Shown here piece after piece: positions 27,142 to 32,215 of a DNA stretch of 64,000 nt. Location: NCBI RefSeq assembly GCF_004152935.1, contig NZ_SETE01000002.1, positions 744,001-808,000 on the forward strand. Reading direction: 5' to 3'. The position numbers were made by a program, and so were the translations under genes. The notes under the pieces were generated by a model that was not told the DNA's origin, did not search any database, and saw only the letters and a list, made by a program, of their open reading frames with translations. Source of the DNA: Brumimicrobium glaciale. GTDB lineage: Bacteria; Bacteroidota; Bacteroidia; Flavobacteriales_D; Crocinitomicaceae. Within the stretch, counting starts at the first letter, position 1; each line of letters opens with the position of its first letter.

Positions 27142-28035
27142 TTAACTCATTTTTAAAAAAGAAACTTCTTTCTCTGTTAGGTGTCTAAATTGACCACGTG
27201 GCAAATCTTTTTTATCTAATCCAGCAAATTCAACACGGTCAAGCTTGACGATTTCATATCCCATCTTACCCATCATTAATTTCACTTTATTGCTCTTATT
27301 TGAGAAGATTTTAACCCCAATTTCATTGTGTCCTTTTCCATTAATGAAACTAGCTTCTTCAGCACTAAACATCATGTCATCAACAAACAAACCTTTGGTT
27401 AATTTCTCCAAATCTTCTTCTGACATTATTGTTTTCAAAACAACATGGAACAATTGTGAAACCTTAAACTTTGGATGCATCAATTTCTTCTCCATATCTG
27501 CATCATTGGTATACAAAATCAATCCACAAGCTAATCTATCCATTTTCCCAACAGGGTCAAGCATTTCTCTACTTGCTTTTTGGATTAAGTTATAAACAGA
27601 CTTTTTAGCTGGATCATCGCTGTATCTAACCCCAAAATCTTTTGGCTTATTAACCAAAACATATCTTCTAACATCGCGTTTTATCGCAGCGCCATCATAA
27701 CGAACAACATCAGATGGGTTCACTTTATATCCCAATTCAGTAATCACTGTTCCGTTTACACTAACAGTTCCAGATTCAATTAAAGTATCTGCCCCTCTTC
27801 GAGAACAAATTCCTGCATTGGATAAATATTTATTTAATCTTATTTTGTCATCAAACTTTGGCATAGGCTCCCCTTGGTTGTTGCGGTTCTTTTTCGGTAA
27901 TCCTGCTGCACCTTCTAAAACTTTTGCCTTCCCCTTATCTTTCGATAAATATTTACTCGGTTTACCGTCGTATTTAGACTTCCCTTTTCCACGTGTATCC
28001 CTGCTTTTTGGATTTTCTCCACTAATTTTACTCAT
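27142..28035 (-). CDS. RsuA/RluB-type rRNA pseudouridine synthase
   Basis: 297 residues. A basic, low-complexity N-terminal extension (about residues 1-65, rich in Lys and Gly) precedes an S4 RNA-binding domain (IRLNKYLSNAGICSRRGADTL, about 66-110) and the catalytic domain. The catalytic aspartate lies in PVGKMDRLACGLILYTND, the counterpart of GRLDxxTxGLLLLTND. The -K-M-D-R-L-A-C-G- version departs from the consensus at several neutral positions but keeps the Asp. Expected to modify a uridine of 23S or 16S rRNA; the exact site cannot be told. Driven by a perfect TATCTTTG element 18 bases upstream. Confidence 0.9.
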   Translation of the reverse strand: MSKISGENPKSRDTRGKGKSKYDGKPSKYLSKDKGKAKVLEGAAGLPKKNRNNQGEPMPKFDDKIRLNKYLSNAGICSRRGADTLIESGTVSVNGTVITELGYKVNPSDVVRYDGAAIKRDVRRYVLVNKPKDFGVRYSDDPAKKSVYNLIQKASREMLDPVGKMDRLACGLILYTNDADMEKKLMHPKFKVSQLFHVVLKTIMSEEDLEKLTKGLFVDDMMFSAEEASFINGKGHNEIGVKIFSNKSNKVKLMMGKMGYEIVKLDRVEFAGLDKKDLPRGQFRHLTEKEVSFLKMS

Positions 28036-28573: not shown

Positions 28574-28933
28574 TTACAATCGCGGATAAAATGCTTCTTC
28601 TATGTGTTCGATAAATGTTCCATGTGAATTATGAACTATAGAAATAATATCAAATTGTGCTTCAATATCGAGATCTCGTGAAACAATATACTGATGGGCA
28701 CATTTTATAATCTGGCGCTGTTTATGACGCGTTACTGATTTCCACGGCGGCCCGATTTCAGCAGTTTGTCTTGTTTTTACTTCTACGAATACAACTTTTC
28801 CAGGCAATGAGTAGATGATATCAATTTCATTTCTGTTGAATCGATAATTTGTGTCTGTAATTTTAAATCCGTTTTTTCTTAAAAACTGAAGGGCTTTTAG
28901 CTCTCCGAGGTCTCCTAATTCTTTGGTGGTCAT
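28574..28933 (-). CDS. yraN: YraN family (UPF0102) predicted endonuclease
   Basis: 119 residues from the ATG at 28933; upstream in-frame starts would add residues outside the family's usual N-terminus. The restriction-endonuclease-like core is clear: LGELKALQFLRKNGFKI, then the catalytic pattern NEIDIIY and VVFVEVKTRQ (E-x-D ... E-x-K), and KRQIIKCAHQYI-like helix. YraN proteins are widespread and of uncertain role, perhaps in DNA repair or replication-linked nucleic-acid processing. Monocistronic. Confidence 0.92.
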   Translation of the reverse strand: MTTKELGDLGELKALQFLRKNGFKITDTNYRFNRNEIDIIYSLPGKVVFVEVKTRQTAEIGPPWKSVTRHKQRQIIKCAHQYIVSRDLDIEAQFDIISIVHNSHGTFIEHIEEAFYPRL

Positions 28934-29060
28934 GATATTTTGATTTAAAGTTGACATTAAGTTCGGAAACATTATCAAAAGAAACAAGGTATTTGTATTA
29001 AAATTCATTTTCTAATCTTAATTACAATTTAGCCTTTCAAACTTTAGGATTATTTTAATT

Positions 29061-29249
29061 TTAATCCGCTTCCAACCAATCCCCTCCAATATCTTGACAA
29101 ACTCTATTATAATCTTTTGCGTCTGACCTGCTTAAGTCTTCGTGTATTTCCCAATTGCCTGATCTACCAATACTCTCAAATGAACAATAATAGTCCTTCC
29201 AACAAGAGGTCAAAGACAATCCTATTAACATCGAAAGCGGTAAAATCAA
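29061..29249 (-). CDS. Miniature lipoprotein of the LTSC-KKDY array, start codon lost (member 5)
   Basis: 62 codons from a TTG at 29249. It belongs with the four upstream genes: LPLSMLIGLSLTSC lipobox followed by WKDYYC and, ~35 residues later, C-x-x-x-GGDW. In the siblings the protein begins MKKVLF; here the equivalent codons read AGG-AAA-AAA-TTG, so the ancestral ATG seems to have become AGG at 29256-29258. The frame is otherwise intact to its stop, so this is either translated from TTG or a very recent pseudogene. Divergent at KK to WK after the lipid-bearing cysteine. Confidence 0.55.
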   Translation of the reverse strand: MILPLSMLIGLSLTSCWKDYYCSFESIGRSGNWEIHEDLSRSDAKDYNRVCQDIGGDWLEAD

Positions 29250-29490
29250 TTTTTTCCTAGTGCGCTTTTAGTAAGAAAATAAACTTAGAGAAAATTACTT
29301 GATCTTCTAAATGTAAGGCTATAGAAAAGCTTCGAAGAACTCCTGAAAAATTTAAATCAAAATATATTAAAAGACATTTTAAACTAATTCTTTTGATTTG
29401 TGACCTTTATTAGAATTGAGCAGTAAGGAGAAGTTAACGGAAATACGTTATTTATCATGAATTTGTTATTTCATTTTTTTAAAAATAAAA

Positions 29491-29516
29491 AAAAGTCAGT
29501 TTAAAAACTGACTTTT
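29491..29516 (-). terminator. Terminator of array member 4
   Basis: AAAAGTCAGTTT (29491-29502) pairs with AAACTGACTTTT (29505-29516); in the minus direction it is followed by a run of T. It lies about 30 bases past the stop of the lipoprotein gene at 29548. Confidence 0.85.
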
Positions 29517-29547
29517 CTCTTTATACATATTTGTAATAAATTCCTTA

Positions 29548-29781
29548 CTATTTGATTTTACAATCAGTTGAGGTTTTATAATCTCCAGATGTAACAGATG
29601 TAGACATGTTTTCACACTGATCTTTTGCATCATCTTTTTTATCATTAATAGTCACTGAAGTTGAAGAATCTGCGATACCTTCCATGTTTGTAGAAGTTAT
29701 ACACTCACAAGTGTAATCTTTTTTACAAGAAGTTAAAGACATAGCACCAAATAACAACCCAACAAATAATACTTTTTTCAT
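29548..29781 (-). CDS. Miniature lipoprotein, LTSC-KKDY family (member 4)
   Basis: 77 residues: MKKVLFVGLLFGAMSLTSC signal with lipobox, then KKDYTCEC and an acidic, Ser/Thr-rich mature part of about 58 residues. It differs from its siblings in having CEC after KKDY and two distal cysteines (DQCENM and STDCKIK), and lacks their terminal GTW. Own terminator directly downstream; TATATTCG at 29816-29823 (minus) is a 7/8 match to the -7 consensus. Function unknown. Confidence 0.75.
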   Translation of the reverse strand: MKKVLFVGLLFGAMSLTSCKKDYTCECITSTNMEGIADSSTSVTINDKKDDAKDQCENMSTSVTSGDYKTSTDCKIK

Positions 29782-30038
29782 AATTAGTAATTTAAATTAA
29801 TTTTTTAATAATGTACGAATATAATAAAAGCTAGAAACTTTAACAAATTTTAAAATGAATATCCAGAAACTTGAAAAACGGAAAGCTTTGCACGCCCCTA
29901 AGCAACTTAATTATTTGATGATCAATACATTTTGATTTTGAGTTGATATTGAGTTCGGAAATAATGGCTGATTCGACAAGACATTCGCCTCAAGCAATGT
30001 GAGATTTAAAGATATTCTTGACTATATGTGGAATGAAG

Positions 30039-30245
30039 TTACTTTACAGAGAAAGTACCCTGCACTAAATCACAATTTGCTTTGGCTGCAGCTTTGTCAG
30101 AATTCTTAACATTATCATAAGGGTGAGATTCAGTGATAGTCCCTCCTGATCCATTTGGATAAGAATAAACACATTCATAATCTTTCTTACAAGATGTTAA
30201 AGCCAGTCCTCCGAAAATCATTCCAATAAAAAGTATTTTTTTCAT
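30039..30245 (-). CDS. Miniature lipoprotein, LTSC-KKDY family (member 3)
   Basis: 68 residues from the ATG at 30245: MKKILFIGMIFGGLALTSC then KKDYECVYSYPNGSGG and, at the end, ANCDLVQGTFSVK. A longer frame to 30293 is open but would bury the signal peptide behind 16 residues. A TAGTTTTG element at 30251-30258 sits five bases before the ATG, supporting this start and a leaderless mRNA. Shared features with siblings: lipobox cysteine, KKDY-x-C, and a distal Cys five residues before a G-T-aromatic end. No clear terminator was seen. Confidence 0.75.
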   Translation of the reverse strand: MKKILFIGMIFGGLALTSCKKDYECVYSYPNGSGGTITESHPYDNVKNSDKAAAKANCDLVQGTFSVK

Positions 30246-30250
30246 AACAT

Positions 30251-30258
30251 CAAAACTA
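30251..30258 (-). promoter_or_regulatory. -7 element abutting array member 3
   Basis: TAGTTTTG on the minus strand, five bases before the ATG at 30245; fits TAnnTTTG fully. Confidence 0.5.
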
Positions 30259-30337
30259 AATAAAGAATCTACACCAATAACAAAATCAAACAATTAACTT
30301 CTAATAATATAGTTTCATTTTTCAAAATATAAAGCAC

Positions 30338-30371
30338 AAAAAAGAGGAACTCGCATGAGTTCCTCTTTTTT
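30338..30371 (-). terminator. Terminator of array member 2
   Basis: AAAAAAGAGGAACTC (30338-30352), loop GCAT, GAGTTCCTCTTTTTT (30357-30371): a perfect 15-bp stem with U-tract, 15 bases past the stop codon of the gene at 30387. Confidence 0.93.
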
Positions 30372-30386
30372 AATGCTGTAAACTAA

Positions 30387-30575
30387 TTACTTAGTTGTCC
30401 AAGTTCCACCTGCAGCTTTACACTGAGTTTCAGCTGTATCAGCTTGACTTTTCTTAAGGTCTGGATATTCAACATCTGCGAAAAATGCAGAATCAAATTT
30501 ACATACGTAATCTTTCTTACAAGAAGTTAACGCTAAACCTCCGAAAATCATTCCAATAAATAATACTTTTTTCAT
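30387..30575 (-). CDS. Miniature lipoprotein, LTSC-KKDY family (member 2)
   Basis: 62 residues: MKKVLFIGMIFGGLALTSC, KKDYVCKF, an acidic middle and a C-terminal TQCKAAGGTWTTK. The mature chain is only ~44 residues with two cysteines besides the lipid-bearing one, placed so that a disulfide could staple the ends. Preceded by a TAGATTTG promoter element 42 bases upstream and followed by a perfect terminator, so it is an independent transcription unit. Signal peptide nearly identical to member 3, pointing to recent duplication. Confidence 0.8.
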   Translation of the reverse strand: MKKVLFIGMIFGGLALTSCKKDYVCKFDSAFFADVEYPDLKKSQADTAETQCKAAGGTWTTK

Positions 30576-30617
30576 AACAATAGGGTATTTTTAGTAATTC
30601 AATAAATTAATTATCGG

Positions 30618-30625
30618 CAAATCTA
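30618..30625 (-). promoter_or_regulatory. -7 element of array member 2
   Basis: TAGATTTG on the minus strand, 42 bases upstream of the ATG at 30575. Confidence 0.5.
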
Positions 30626-30850
30626 TATAATTTTATTTAAACATTTAACTTTTTTTAAAACAAAAAACTAATTCTCAAACAAAAAAAATCTCAAAACACT
30701 AAAAACAAAATAGTTACATTCGCTTAATTCATTCCATATACTTTATATCCAGACGATATATTATTGAAAAACATGTTTAAGTCTACTGTTTTTAGTGCTT
30801 TAGCTTTTTTTTGGGAGCTCCACCTAATTTAAAAAATATATGAAATTAAA

Positions 30851-30872
30851 AAGGAGCTCAAAAGAGCTCCTT
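30851..30872 (-). terminator. Terminator of array member 1
   Basis: AAGGAGCTC (30851-30859), loop AAAA, GAGCTCCTT (30864-30872); the minus strand continues TTTTTAATTT. 22 bases past the stop of the gene at 30895. Confidence 0.85.
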
Positions 30873-30894
30873 AATATTTTTATCGAATGGTTTA

Positions 30895-31095
30895 TTAAAG
30901 ATCTAATGACCAAGTTCCTTTGATAATCCCAGTTTCACAATCTTTTTCCTGAGCGTCAGCCTCACTTTGAGTTAAATCTTTATATTCTGTAACAATTTTG
31001 GTGTCTCCAGAACCTACCTCACATTTATAATCTTTCTTACAAGACGTTAAAGCCATTGCTCCAAAAACCATCCCTACAAACAATACTTTTTTCAT
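30895..31095 (-). CDS. Miniature lipoprotein, LTSC-KKDY family (member 1)
   Basis: 66 residues: MKKVLFVGMVFGAMALTSC signal and lipobox, KKDYKCEVGSGD, then EKDCETGIIKGTWSLDL at the end. Mature chain about 48 residues, acidic. Like member 2 it keeps KKDY-x-C near the lipid anchor and a distal cysteine followed shortly by GTW. It has its own terminator. A conserved structural role on the periplasmic or surface face of a membrane is likely, but no function is known to me. Confidence 0.8.
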   Translation of the reverse strand: MKKVLFVGMVFGAMALTSCKKDYKCEVGSGDTKIVTEYKDLTQSEADAQEKDCETGIIKGTWSLDL

Positions 31096-31483: not shown

Positions 31484-32215
31484 ATGCTCGATAAAGTAAA
31501 CTTAGAAAAGATATTGTTTCTTGATATAGAAACCGTTCCACAGACTTATGACTTCAAGGATTTAGATGAAACTACTGCTGGATTATTTAATCAAAAAACA
31601 CGCTTTCAACAGAAGGATGGAAAAACGGTGGAAGAAATCTATGGTGAACGTGGAGGTATCTTGGCTGAATTCGGTAAAATCGTTTGTATTTCAGTCGGGT
31701 ATATTAACAAACCTAAATCTGGTGTTATTGTTAATAAAAAGATTAAACTAAAATCATTTTATCATGATGATGAAGAAACTTTATTGAAAAATTTTGCTGA
31801 CTTATTAAATGATTATTACAGTGATCCATATCATGTATTATGCGCTCACAATGGAAAAGAGTTTGACTTTCCATATATCGCTCGTCGCATGTTAATTCAT
31901 GGATTAAAGTTGCCTTTGCCATTAGACATTGCAGGTAAAAAACCTTGGGAAGTAAATCACATTGATACGCTTGAATTATGGAAATTCGGAGATTACAAAC
32001 ACTATACTTCCCTCCCATTATTGTGTCACATTTTTAAAATTCCAACACCGAAAGATGATATTTCGGGAGCTGATGTTGCAAGAGTTTACTATGAAGAGAA
32101 GGACCTTGAAAGAATAAAAGTATATTGCGAAAAAGACGTGGTAGCGTTGATTCAGTTATTTTTAAAAATGAAGGGTGATGGTTTGGTTGAAGAAGGTGAC
32201 ATTATTTATTCTTAG
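31484..32215 (+). CDS. DnaQ/PolB-like 3'-5' exonuclease
   Basis: 243 residues. Matches the predicted 3'-5' exonuclease group related to the PolB proofreading domain (PF10108). The DEDD-type catalytic residues are visible: ILFLDIETVP (exo I, near residue 10), AHNGKEFDFPYIARRM (exo II, near 120) and YCEKDVVALIQLFLKM (exo III, near 215). Likely acts on DNA or RNA ends in the cytoplasm; no polymerase domain is attached. The next gene starts 38 bases before this one ends, in another frame. Confidence 0.9.
   Translation: MLDKVNLEKILFLDIETVPQTYDFKDLDETTAGLFNQKTRFQQKDGKTVEEIYGERGGILAEFGKIVCISVGYINKPKSGVIVNKKIKLKSFYHDDEETLLKNFADLLNDYYSDPYHVLCAHNGKEFDFPYIARRMLIHGLKLPLPLDIAGKKPWEVNHIDTLELWKFGDYKHYTSLPLLCHIFKIPTPKDDISGADVARVYYEEKDLERIKVYCEKDVVALIQLFLKMKGDGLVEEGDIIYS

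Follow-up and report, generated by a model that had tools for sequence, protein, structure and literature searches.

Five small lipoprotein genes in Brumimicrobium glaciale belong to an undescribed Bacteroidota family that is often encoded beside membrane thioredoxin-like proteins

A 64,000-nucleotide stretch of the Brumimicrobium glaciale genome (contig NZ_SETE01000002.1, positions 744,001–808,000 of the forward strand; hereafter, the window) contains an array of five consecutive minus-strand open reading frames (ORFs) at positions 29061–31095, which encode the lipoprotein-like proteins P0001 to P0005 (Table 1). As an earlier note on this DNA had described, each carries an LTSC lipobox followed by K/W-KDY-x-C. 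Counted from the lipid Cys, the mature chains are 44–59 residues long, and alignment of all five gave 13 invariant columns, including the lipid Cys, K at +3, D at +4, Y at +5, Cys at +7 and one distal Cys. In four of the five, again as described, G-T/D-aromatic follows the distal Cys; the exception is P0004, which has a CxC motif plus a second, C-terminal Cys instead. The chains had also been called acidic, which is true of three and not of P0002 and P0003 (net charges of P0001–P0005: −4, 0, 0, −3 and −6).

Table 1. Positions of the array genes, their terminators and the flanking genes in the window.
Feature	Position	Strand	Source
P0001: 66-aa lipoprotein, two-Cys form (CKKDYKC ... C ... GTW)	30895..31095	−	ORF, alignment and profile
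P0001 intrinsic terminator	30851..30872	−	terminator scan
P0002: 62-aa lipoprotein, two-Cys form, AlphaFold2-modelled	30387..30575	−	ORF and model
P0002 intrinsic terminator	30337..30372	−	terminator scan
P0003: 68-aa lipoprotein, two-Cys form	30039..30245	−	ORF
P0004: 77-aa lipoprotein, four-Cys form (CKKDYTCEC ... C ... C)	29548..29781	−	ORF and model
P0004 intrinsic terminator	29487..29520	−	terminator scan
P0005: 62–65 codons, two-Cys form, W at +2 (CWKDYYC)	29061..29258	−	ORF
Flank, outside the system: UPF0102 (PF02021) protein	28574..29008	−	Pfam
Flank, outside the system: predicted 3'-5' exonuclease (PF10108)	31484..32215	+	Pfam

The family is undescribed: no family in our Pfam, NCBIfam, PHROGs, PADLOC or PDB searches covers its members, in agreement with the earlier statement that the genes could not be assigned to any described family, and nothing was found that would make them fragments of a larger known one. 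Pfam, searched with the five ORFs and 63 full-length members, gave a best E value of 0.0047 (a single member) and no family in more than five members; neither NCBIfam (the five, 63 full-length and 63 mature sequences) nor PHROGs (full-length and mature) contained a covering family, PADLOC matched 0/63 mature domains and a sequence-profile search of the PDB gave a best E value of 0.17. In the mature-domain scans, no known family matched more than 1/63 members. Foldseek comparison of the P0004 and P0002 models with the PDB returned no match at 0.001, and that of the P0004 model with BFVD a best E value of 0.056. The strings KKDYTC and CKKDY were not found in the open-access literature searched.

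A profile of the five sequences recovered the window ORFs from their own genome at E values of 1.4e-27 to 5.9e-32 (the same rows had built the profile); the next matches, from 5.6e-4, mainly covered the signal peptide or belonged to another lipoprotein. This full-length profile gave 43/59 at E ≤ 0.01, including signal-peptide-only matches, and was not used as a family count. With a mature-only profile, the family was found in 8/10 genomes of the genus (E ≤ 0.001), 62/150 of the order and 3/296 of a phylum sample (both E ≤ 1e-5); the phylum census had been run first with the full-length profile on at most 15 candidates per genome, and the repeat returned the same three genomes. A scan for the word CKKDYTC in a collection of named genomes yielded 295 stretches and 214 relatives, the best 80 of which were kept (named loci, prefixed L); these best 80 of 214 were all titled Bacteroidota (Crocinitomix, Chitinophagaceae, Saprospiraceae, Flavobacteriales, a Bacteroidales metagenome-assembled genome and others). 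The family is thus frequent within its order, with scattered occurrences in Bacteroidota of other orders. Restriction to one strain, which the earlier note had named as a point against its reading, is not what we found, and the multi-copy family with a conserved Cys pair that it would have counted as support was recovered. The lipid-bearing Cys of the lipobox, the Lys at +3, the Cys at +7 and a Cys in the predicted helix are invariant in alignments of 63, 63 and 104 sequences (the five window ORFs included). Four named loci (L121, L138, L146 and L157) carry tandem arrays of four or five members with differing lengths and loops. Two other small lipoproteins were also seen. One, at L070:4199-4402 (minus strand) and in the window's genome at C1:241294-241401, has a lipobox, KKCSEC and four further cysteines, and was matched by the five-sequence profile over positions 1–28 only; the other, CNKDQAAVK-LDG-W, is located close to family members in each of two genera (L063:3717-4112 and L040:1883-2314).

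Cysteines occur in even numbers. The 165 distinct mature members comprise 143 with four cysteines beyond the lipid Cys, 19 with two, 3 with six and none with an odd number (rows left out of the count include L067, L083:5246, three near-copies and L017, which belongs to another family, all with four, and L148, which has a run of N). Extra cysteines were noted in members L121:5430 and L157:4791. The common form has four mature cysteines, that is, CxC, a helix Cys and a C-terminal Cys. CxC and a Cys within eight residues of the C terminus are both present in 143/165 and both absent in 21/165; in the remaining member, L061:2517, CxC is present and the last Cys lies farther in, 11 residues before the end. 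In the window, only P0004 has the four-Cys form; P0001–P0003 and P0005 lack CxC and the C-terminal Cys and fall within a two-Cys clade. The 21 members without both features form a single clade in a tree of 164 (support 0.81), requiring one change as compared with at least 18 in 100 label shuffles. The conserved Cys pair looks like a remnant of a four-Cys form. L123 and L127:5339 look like intermediates between the two forms: they share the longer helix of the two-Cys branch but carry Cys-T/V-W in place of the G-T/D-W found in most two-Cys proteins of the window.

AlphaFold2 models were built for the mature parts of P0004 and P0002 from alignments of 104 and 59 sequences, respectively. The P0004 model has strands at residues 6–16 and 24–32, a helix at 34–43 and strands at 46–50 and 53–61 (β-β-α-β-β; pLDDT 89.9, pTM 0.65), and the P0002 model has strands at 6–11 and 20–25, a helix at 27–39 and a strand at 43–46 (β-β-α-β; pLDDT 90.2, pTM 0.64). 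The modelled cysteines sit on strand 1, on the helix and, in P0004, on strand 4. Given these positions and the joint absence of CxC and the C-terminal Cys, we infer disulfides C10–C41 and C12–C59 (P0004 model numbering), with C10–C37 as the corresponding pair in P0002: Cys(+7) would be bonded to the helix Cys throughout the family, and four-Cys proteins would have a further bond from the second Cys of CxC to the C-terminal Cys, so that the mature domain would be a small β-β-α-β(-β) fold held by disulfides.

The genomic surroundings of the family in relatives are dominated by one gene. Clustering (Blast) of 534 neighbouring ORFs from the 80 named loci gave a single outstanding cluster, present in 45 loci and 34 independent groups at no more than 457 bp from the lipoprotein gene, and the next cluster reached five groups. 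In a profile rescan, this partner gene lay downstream, on the same strand and 14–460 bp from a family member in 46/80 named loci, and no partner was found in the non-adjacent loci; 46/47 partner frames had a family member upstream, the exception (L086:4151) lying just before one. A second, redundant set of loci (49 scanned) had a partner in 15/46 loci with a family match, always downstream. Across the 150 genomes of the order, the family occurs in 62, the partner in 68 and both in 55, with the family only in 7 and the partner only in 13 (Fisher p 2e-20, uncorrected for phylogeny). All 13 partner-only genomes lie inside the window's taxonomic family, and among the 90 genomes outside it 14/14 partner-positive genomes are also family-positive. 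For at least 36 of the 71 partner genes in the order, a family member lies no more than 1 kb away on the same strand, the partner being downstream in 34 cases and upstream in 2, over 35 genomes; this is a lower bound because adjacency was counted against the 150 family matches listed; among these matches, opposite-strand adjacency was seen for 0/71.

The 46 clustered partners look membrane-anchored, with a C-terminal thioredoxin-like domain, and are either long (26 proteins, 293–339 aa) or short (20 proteins, 192–247 aa). All 38 aligned partners contain CxxC (21 long, with CPHC in 11; 17 short, with CPYC or CPFC in 12), followed 61 residues later by an invariant Pro. The MauE domain (PF07291), known mainly from methylamine dehydrogenase maturation, matched four of the five long partners scanned at 69–83 bits as against a cutoff of 27 (L134, L085, L159 and L158; not L081) and 0/5 short partners scanned, and a C-x-C-x-G loop is present in 17 of the 21 long partners aligned. 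NCBIfam matches were all below cutoff: BT_3928 for the same four MauE-positive long partners, TrbB for two short ones and StoA for one long one. Profile matches in the PDB were weak (best E values 4.6e-4 and 2.4e-4) and mostly to thioredoxin-fold proteins (disulfide oxidoreductases, ResA, StoA, glutaredoxins and thioredoxins), with two designed membrane proteins lower among the matches of the long type. We call the partner thioredoxin-like because of the CxxC, the distant Pro and these PDB matches. In the open-access literature on MauE/MauD and related terms, the gene pair was absent from the titles and abstract openings listed.

Adjacency to a disulfide-type membrane protein in relatives suggests a dedicated folding or redox system. 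The explanation we favour, and hold to be slightly more probable than all others together, is that the array encodes small disulfide-stabilised envelope lipoproteins which, in relatives, are clients of a dedicated membrane thiol oxidoreductase. In many relatives the gene just downstream encodes a membrane-anchored thioredoxin-like protein, many of these proteins carrying a MauE domain, and the family would be functionally linked to them; most likely, the partner would oxidise or proofread the disulfides of the exported lipoprotein, in the way proposed for MauE and methylamine dehydrogenase. A binding or structural role for the lipoprotein is likelier than a catalytic one, since conservation is concentrated in the cysteines, KKDY and a few positions of the helix.

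Alternatively, the lipoprotein could itself be a redox shuttle with CxC as its active site: electrons would be exchanged with the thioredoxin-like domain of the membrane protein and handed on at the outer membrane. The presence of CxC, with a variable middle residue, in 144/165 members and of CxxC in every aligned partner would fit such an exchange. We nevertheless regard it as unlikely: members of the two-Cys branch, which have no CxC, still have an adjacent partner in at least two loci (L130, and L027/L063, which are one locus), and CxC is absent only where the C-terminal Cys is absent too, as expected for a structural pair.

Several observations weigh against an oxidoreductase with lipoprotein clients. 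Pfam matches of the thioredoxin, redoxin or AhpC type were sub-threshold in 6/10 partners scanned and missing in the other four. The partner is not found in 34/80 named loci (a few of them cut by contig ends), the 80 loci were selected for their similarity to a single query, which itself comes from a partner-containing locus, and the co-occurrence statistics take no account of phylogeny. Because the two-Cys branch is one clade, the joint loss of CxC and the C-terminal Cys may be a single event and is weak proof of pairing; moreover, two of the rows removed before cysteines were counted have odd numbers, namely L061:4787 (three, its end apparently frameshifted) and L066:2663 (five). Finally, there is no partner match in the 64 kb of the window or beside the same-genus arrays fetched (L051–L055). 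The window's genome has one distant partner homologue (G000:C5:201841-202497; L194:1501-2169), unlinked to the array and behind a DNA topoisomerase gene, which scores 129 bits as compared with 121–257 for 25 lipoprotein-linked homologues in the same taxonomic family (23/25 at 159 or more), and similar homologues occur in two genus genomes without the family (G006 and G008).

Each of the ten genus genomes has one or two partner homologues, and these are membrane proteins with CxxC (CPFC, CPYC and the like). The homologue lies behind a topoisomerase-like ORF in 10/11 genus loci fetched (Pfam was run on L194 only), and in G009 a second homologue lies upstream of a family member. A MauE-type profile found nothing at 1e-6 in the window's genome. 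Any partner for the window's own five genes is thus a guess.

The unlinked genes of this genus and of other genomes would also be expected if the linkage elsewhere reflected shared regulation, for example by envelope redox stress, with no enzyme–client pair and an unrelated structural role for the lipoprotein; genomes with the partner and no detected family (13/150), or with the family and no partner match (7/150), point the same way. We consider this improbable, given that the two genes are neighbours again and again (in 35 genomes of the order and in 34 groups of named loci) and that two different membrane architectures with a like CxxC module adjoin the family, which points to the redox domain and to more than a shared promoter.

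Within the genus, the array occupies a common site. An ORF like the exonuclease at 31484 flanks it in 5/5 same-genus regions fetched. Beyond its other side, 4/5 have an ORF resembling the S4/pseudouridine synthase at 27142, and G005 has another gene there. The number of copies at this site varies from one genome to the next (5, 1, 3, 2, 2 and 2 in G000–G005). Counterparts of array positions 1, 2 and 4 can be aligned in other genomes, those of P0001 in the arrays of G002, G003, G004 and G005. Twelve orthologous pairs within the genus were compared for their mature parts: five were saturated in dS, and the seven with finite values (0.84–1.79) had dN/dS of 0.09, 0.19, 0.32, 0.21, 0.31, 0.46 and 0.40; ratios of 0.71–1.60 were seen only between paralogues (four pairs compared). 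Recent gene conversion as the source of the near-identical signal peptides is not supported because synonymous sites there differ too. The sequence comparisons thus indicate that the array is a lineage-specific expansion of the family and that its orthologues are under purifying selection.

These values bear on the view taken in the earlier note, which read the array as a diversifying family of surface or periplasmic peptides and would have counted positive selection on their middle part as support; we weigh it here as a surface family resembling antigens or adhesins. Conserved ends, a variable middle and one to five copies at a common site in six genus genomes are what such a family would show; dN/dS of 0.09–0.46 between the orthologues with finite dS leaves 'diversifying' unsupported, the counterparts of positions 1, 2 and 4 remain recognisable across genomes and the export-signal motif is only partial. 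We therefore hold this view to be very improbable.

Separate control of the genes, also proposed earlier, stands in part. Six terminator-like sites were found on both strands as against 0.7 in shuffles, and three of the six are minus-strand sites behind P0001, P0002 and P0004, matching the private terminators claimed for at least three members; the scan found none for P0003 or P0005. The word TANNTTTG, which we take to be the Bacteroidota −7 word, occurs within 90 bp upstream of only P0002 (at −50) and P0003 (at −13), and in 7/16 genus genes as compared with 1.6 in shuffles. The private −7 element claimed for some members thus has a matching word at P0002; the one at P0003, at −13, is too close to act, and within this distance the other three genes have none. 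P0003 has a longer alternative TTG start at 30293 in the ORF list. P0005 has AGG at the position where the other four have their ATG start codon, with a stop four codons upstream, and its next start is a TTG at 29249, with which the KK n-region is lost; for these reasons, and because no terminator was found, P0005 is probably in decay. On the favoured explanation, genes of the window's lineage stand apart from any partner, three of the five having a terminator each, and one disulfide would have been lost in the two-Cys branch.

One family member was found on a viral contig (L190:4977-5192, plus strand; IMG/VR contig IMGVR_UViG_3300010885_033467). It stands alone and reversed between large ORFs, one of them with a match to a PHROG virion structural family, and its placement would fit a moron-like cargo position. 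This speaks for a phage-resistance or superinfection-exclusion lipoprotein like Cor or EexN, both small lipoproteins, which would mask a surface receptor and be spread by duplication and phages; full-length matches to PHROG Cor (phrog_1119; 5/63 members at E ≤ 0.01) and NCBIfam EexN (NF033894; 9/63 at E ≤ 0.1) are in keeping with it. By contrast, 0/63 mature domains match either family or, as noted, PADLOC. Only 1/8 word matches in viral contigs was confirmed as a family member, three more viral-contig scans with other members confirmed none, and 50,697 phage and 72,556 plasmid records gave no match with one representative as query. The slow evolution of the orthologues is also unlike an arms race, and we judge a resistance or exclusion role to be improbable.

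Returning to the reading of the lipoproteins as clients of an oxidoreductase, a broader proposal can be made tentatively, at somewhat less than an even chance. Bacteroidota may possess a dedicated lipoprotein disulfide machine, in which membrane-anchored thioredoxin-like enzymes, many fused to MauE (which could recharge them), each serve a small client encoded just upstream; the oxidised fold would be the functional product, and lineages like that of the window would later have uncoupled and multiplied the client genes. If so, envelope lipoproteins in Bacteroidota would be handled by one-enzyme-one-client disulfide pairs, the MauE domain would have a second client that is small and testable, and annotation would become possible for a family that has no match in the Pfam and NCBIfam copies searched. 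The gene pairing lets both partners be tested together easily.

Among known lipoproteins, the PG1828 family (NF050142) is similar in size and signal peptide, and 32/63 full-length members match it at E ≤ 0.1 (best 1.5e-5), but 0/63 mature domains do, and P0001, P0002 and P0004 score 24.5, 13.5 and 18.5 bits as against a cutoff of 50, with none listed for P0003 and P0005. The start of the mature chain recalls a lipoprotein export signal of Bacteroidota. Lauber et al. 2016 (PMC5080379) give this signal in Capnocytophaga canimorsus as C-X-K-(D/E)2, and KD alone as a weak signal in Capnocytophaga, with SiaC displayed on only 29.8% of cells. Distinct mature members of our family have K at +3 in 164/165, D/E at +4 in 152/165 and Y, W or H at +5 in 160/165; K+3 and D/E+4 thus stand at positions matching the signal as given there, whereas +5 is mostly aromatic and the second acidic residue is absent, so that C-K-K-D-Y would be a partial resemblance. 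The closest parallel for the gene pair is MauE/MauD with the small subunit of methylamine dehydrogenase. In PMC7794033, MauE is speculated to form disulfides in the methylamine dehydrogenase β-subunit and the function of MauD is called unclear. The client here differs in being a lipoprotein of, as a rule, about 42–65 mature residues and no dehydrogenase subunit, and 20 of the 46 clustered partners are of the short type, in which the five scanned have no MauE. Both systems nevertheless place a MauE membrane domain and a thioredoxin-like protein beside a small exported protein with paired cysteines, and in four of the five long partners scanned here the MauE and thioredoxin-like parts are combined in one protein.

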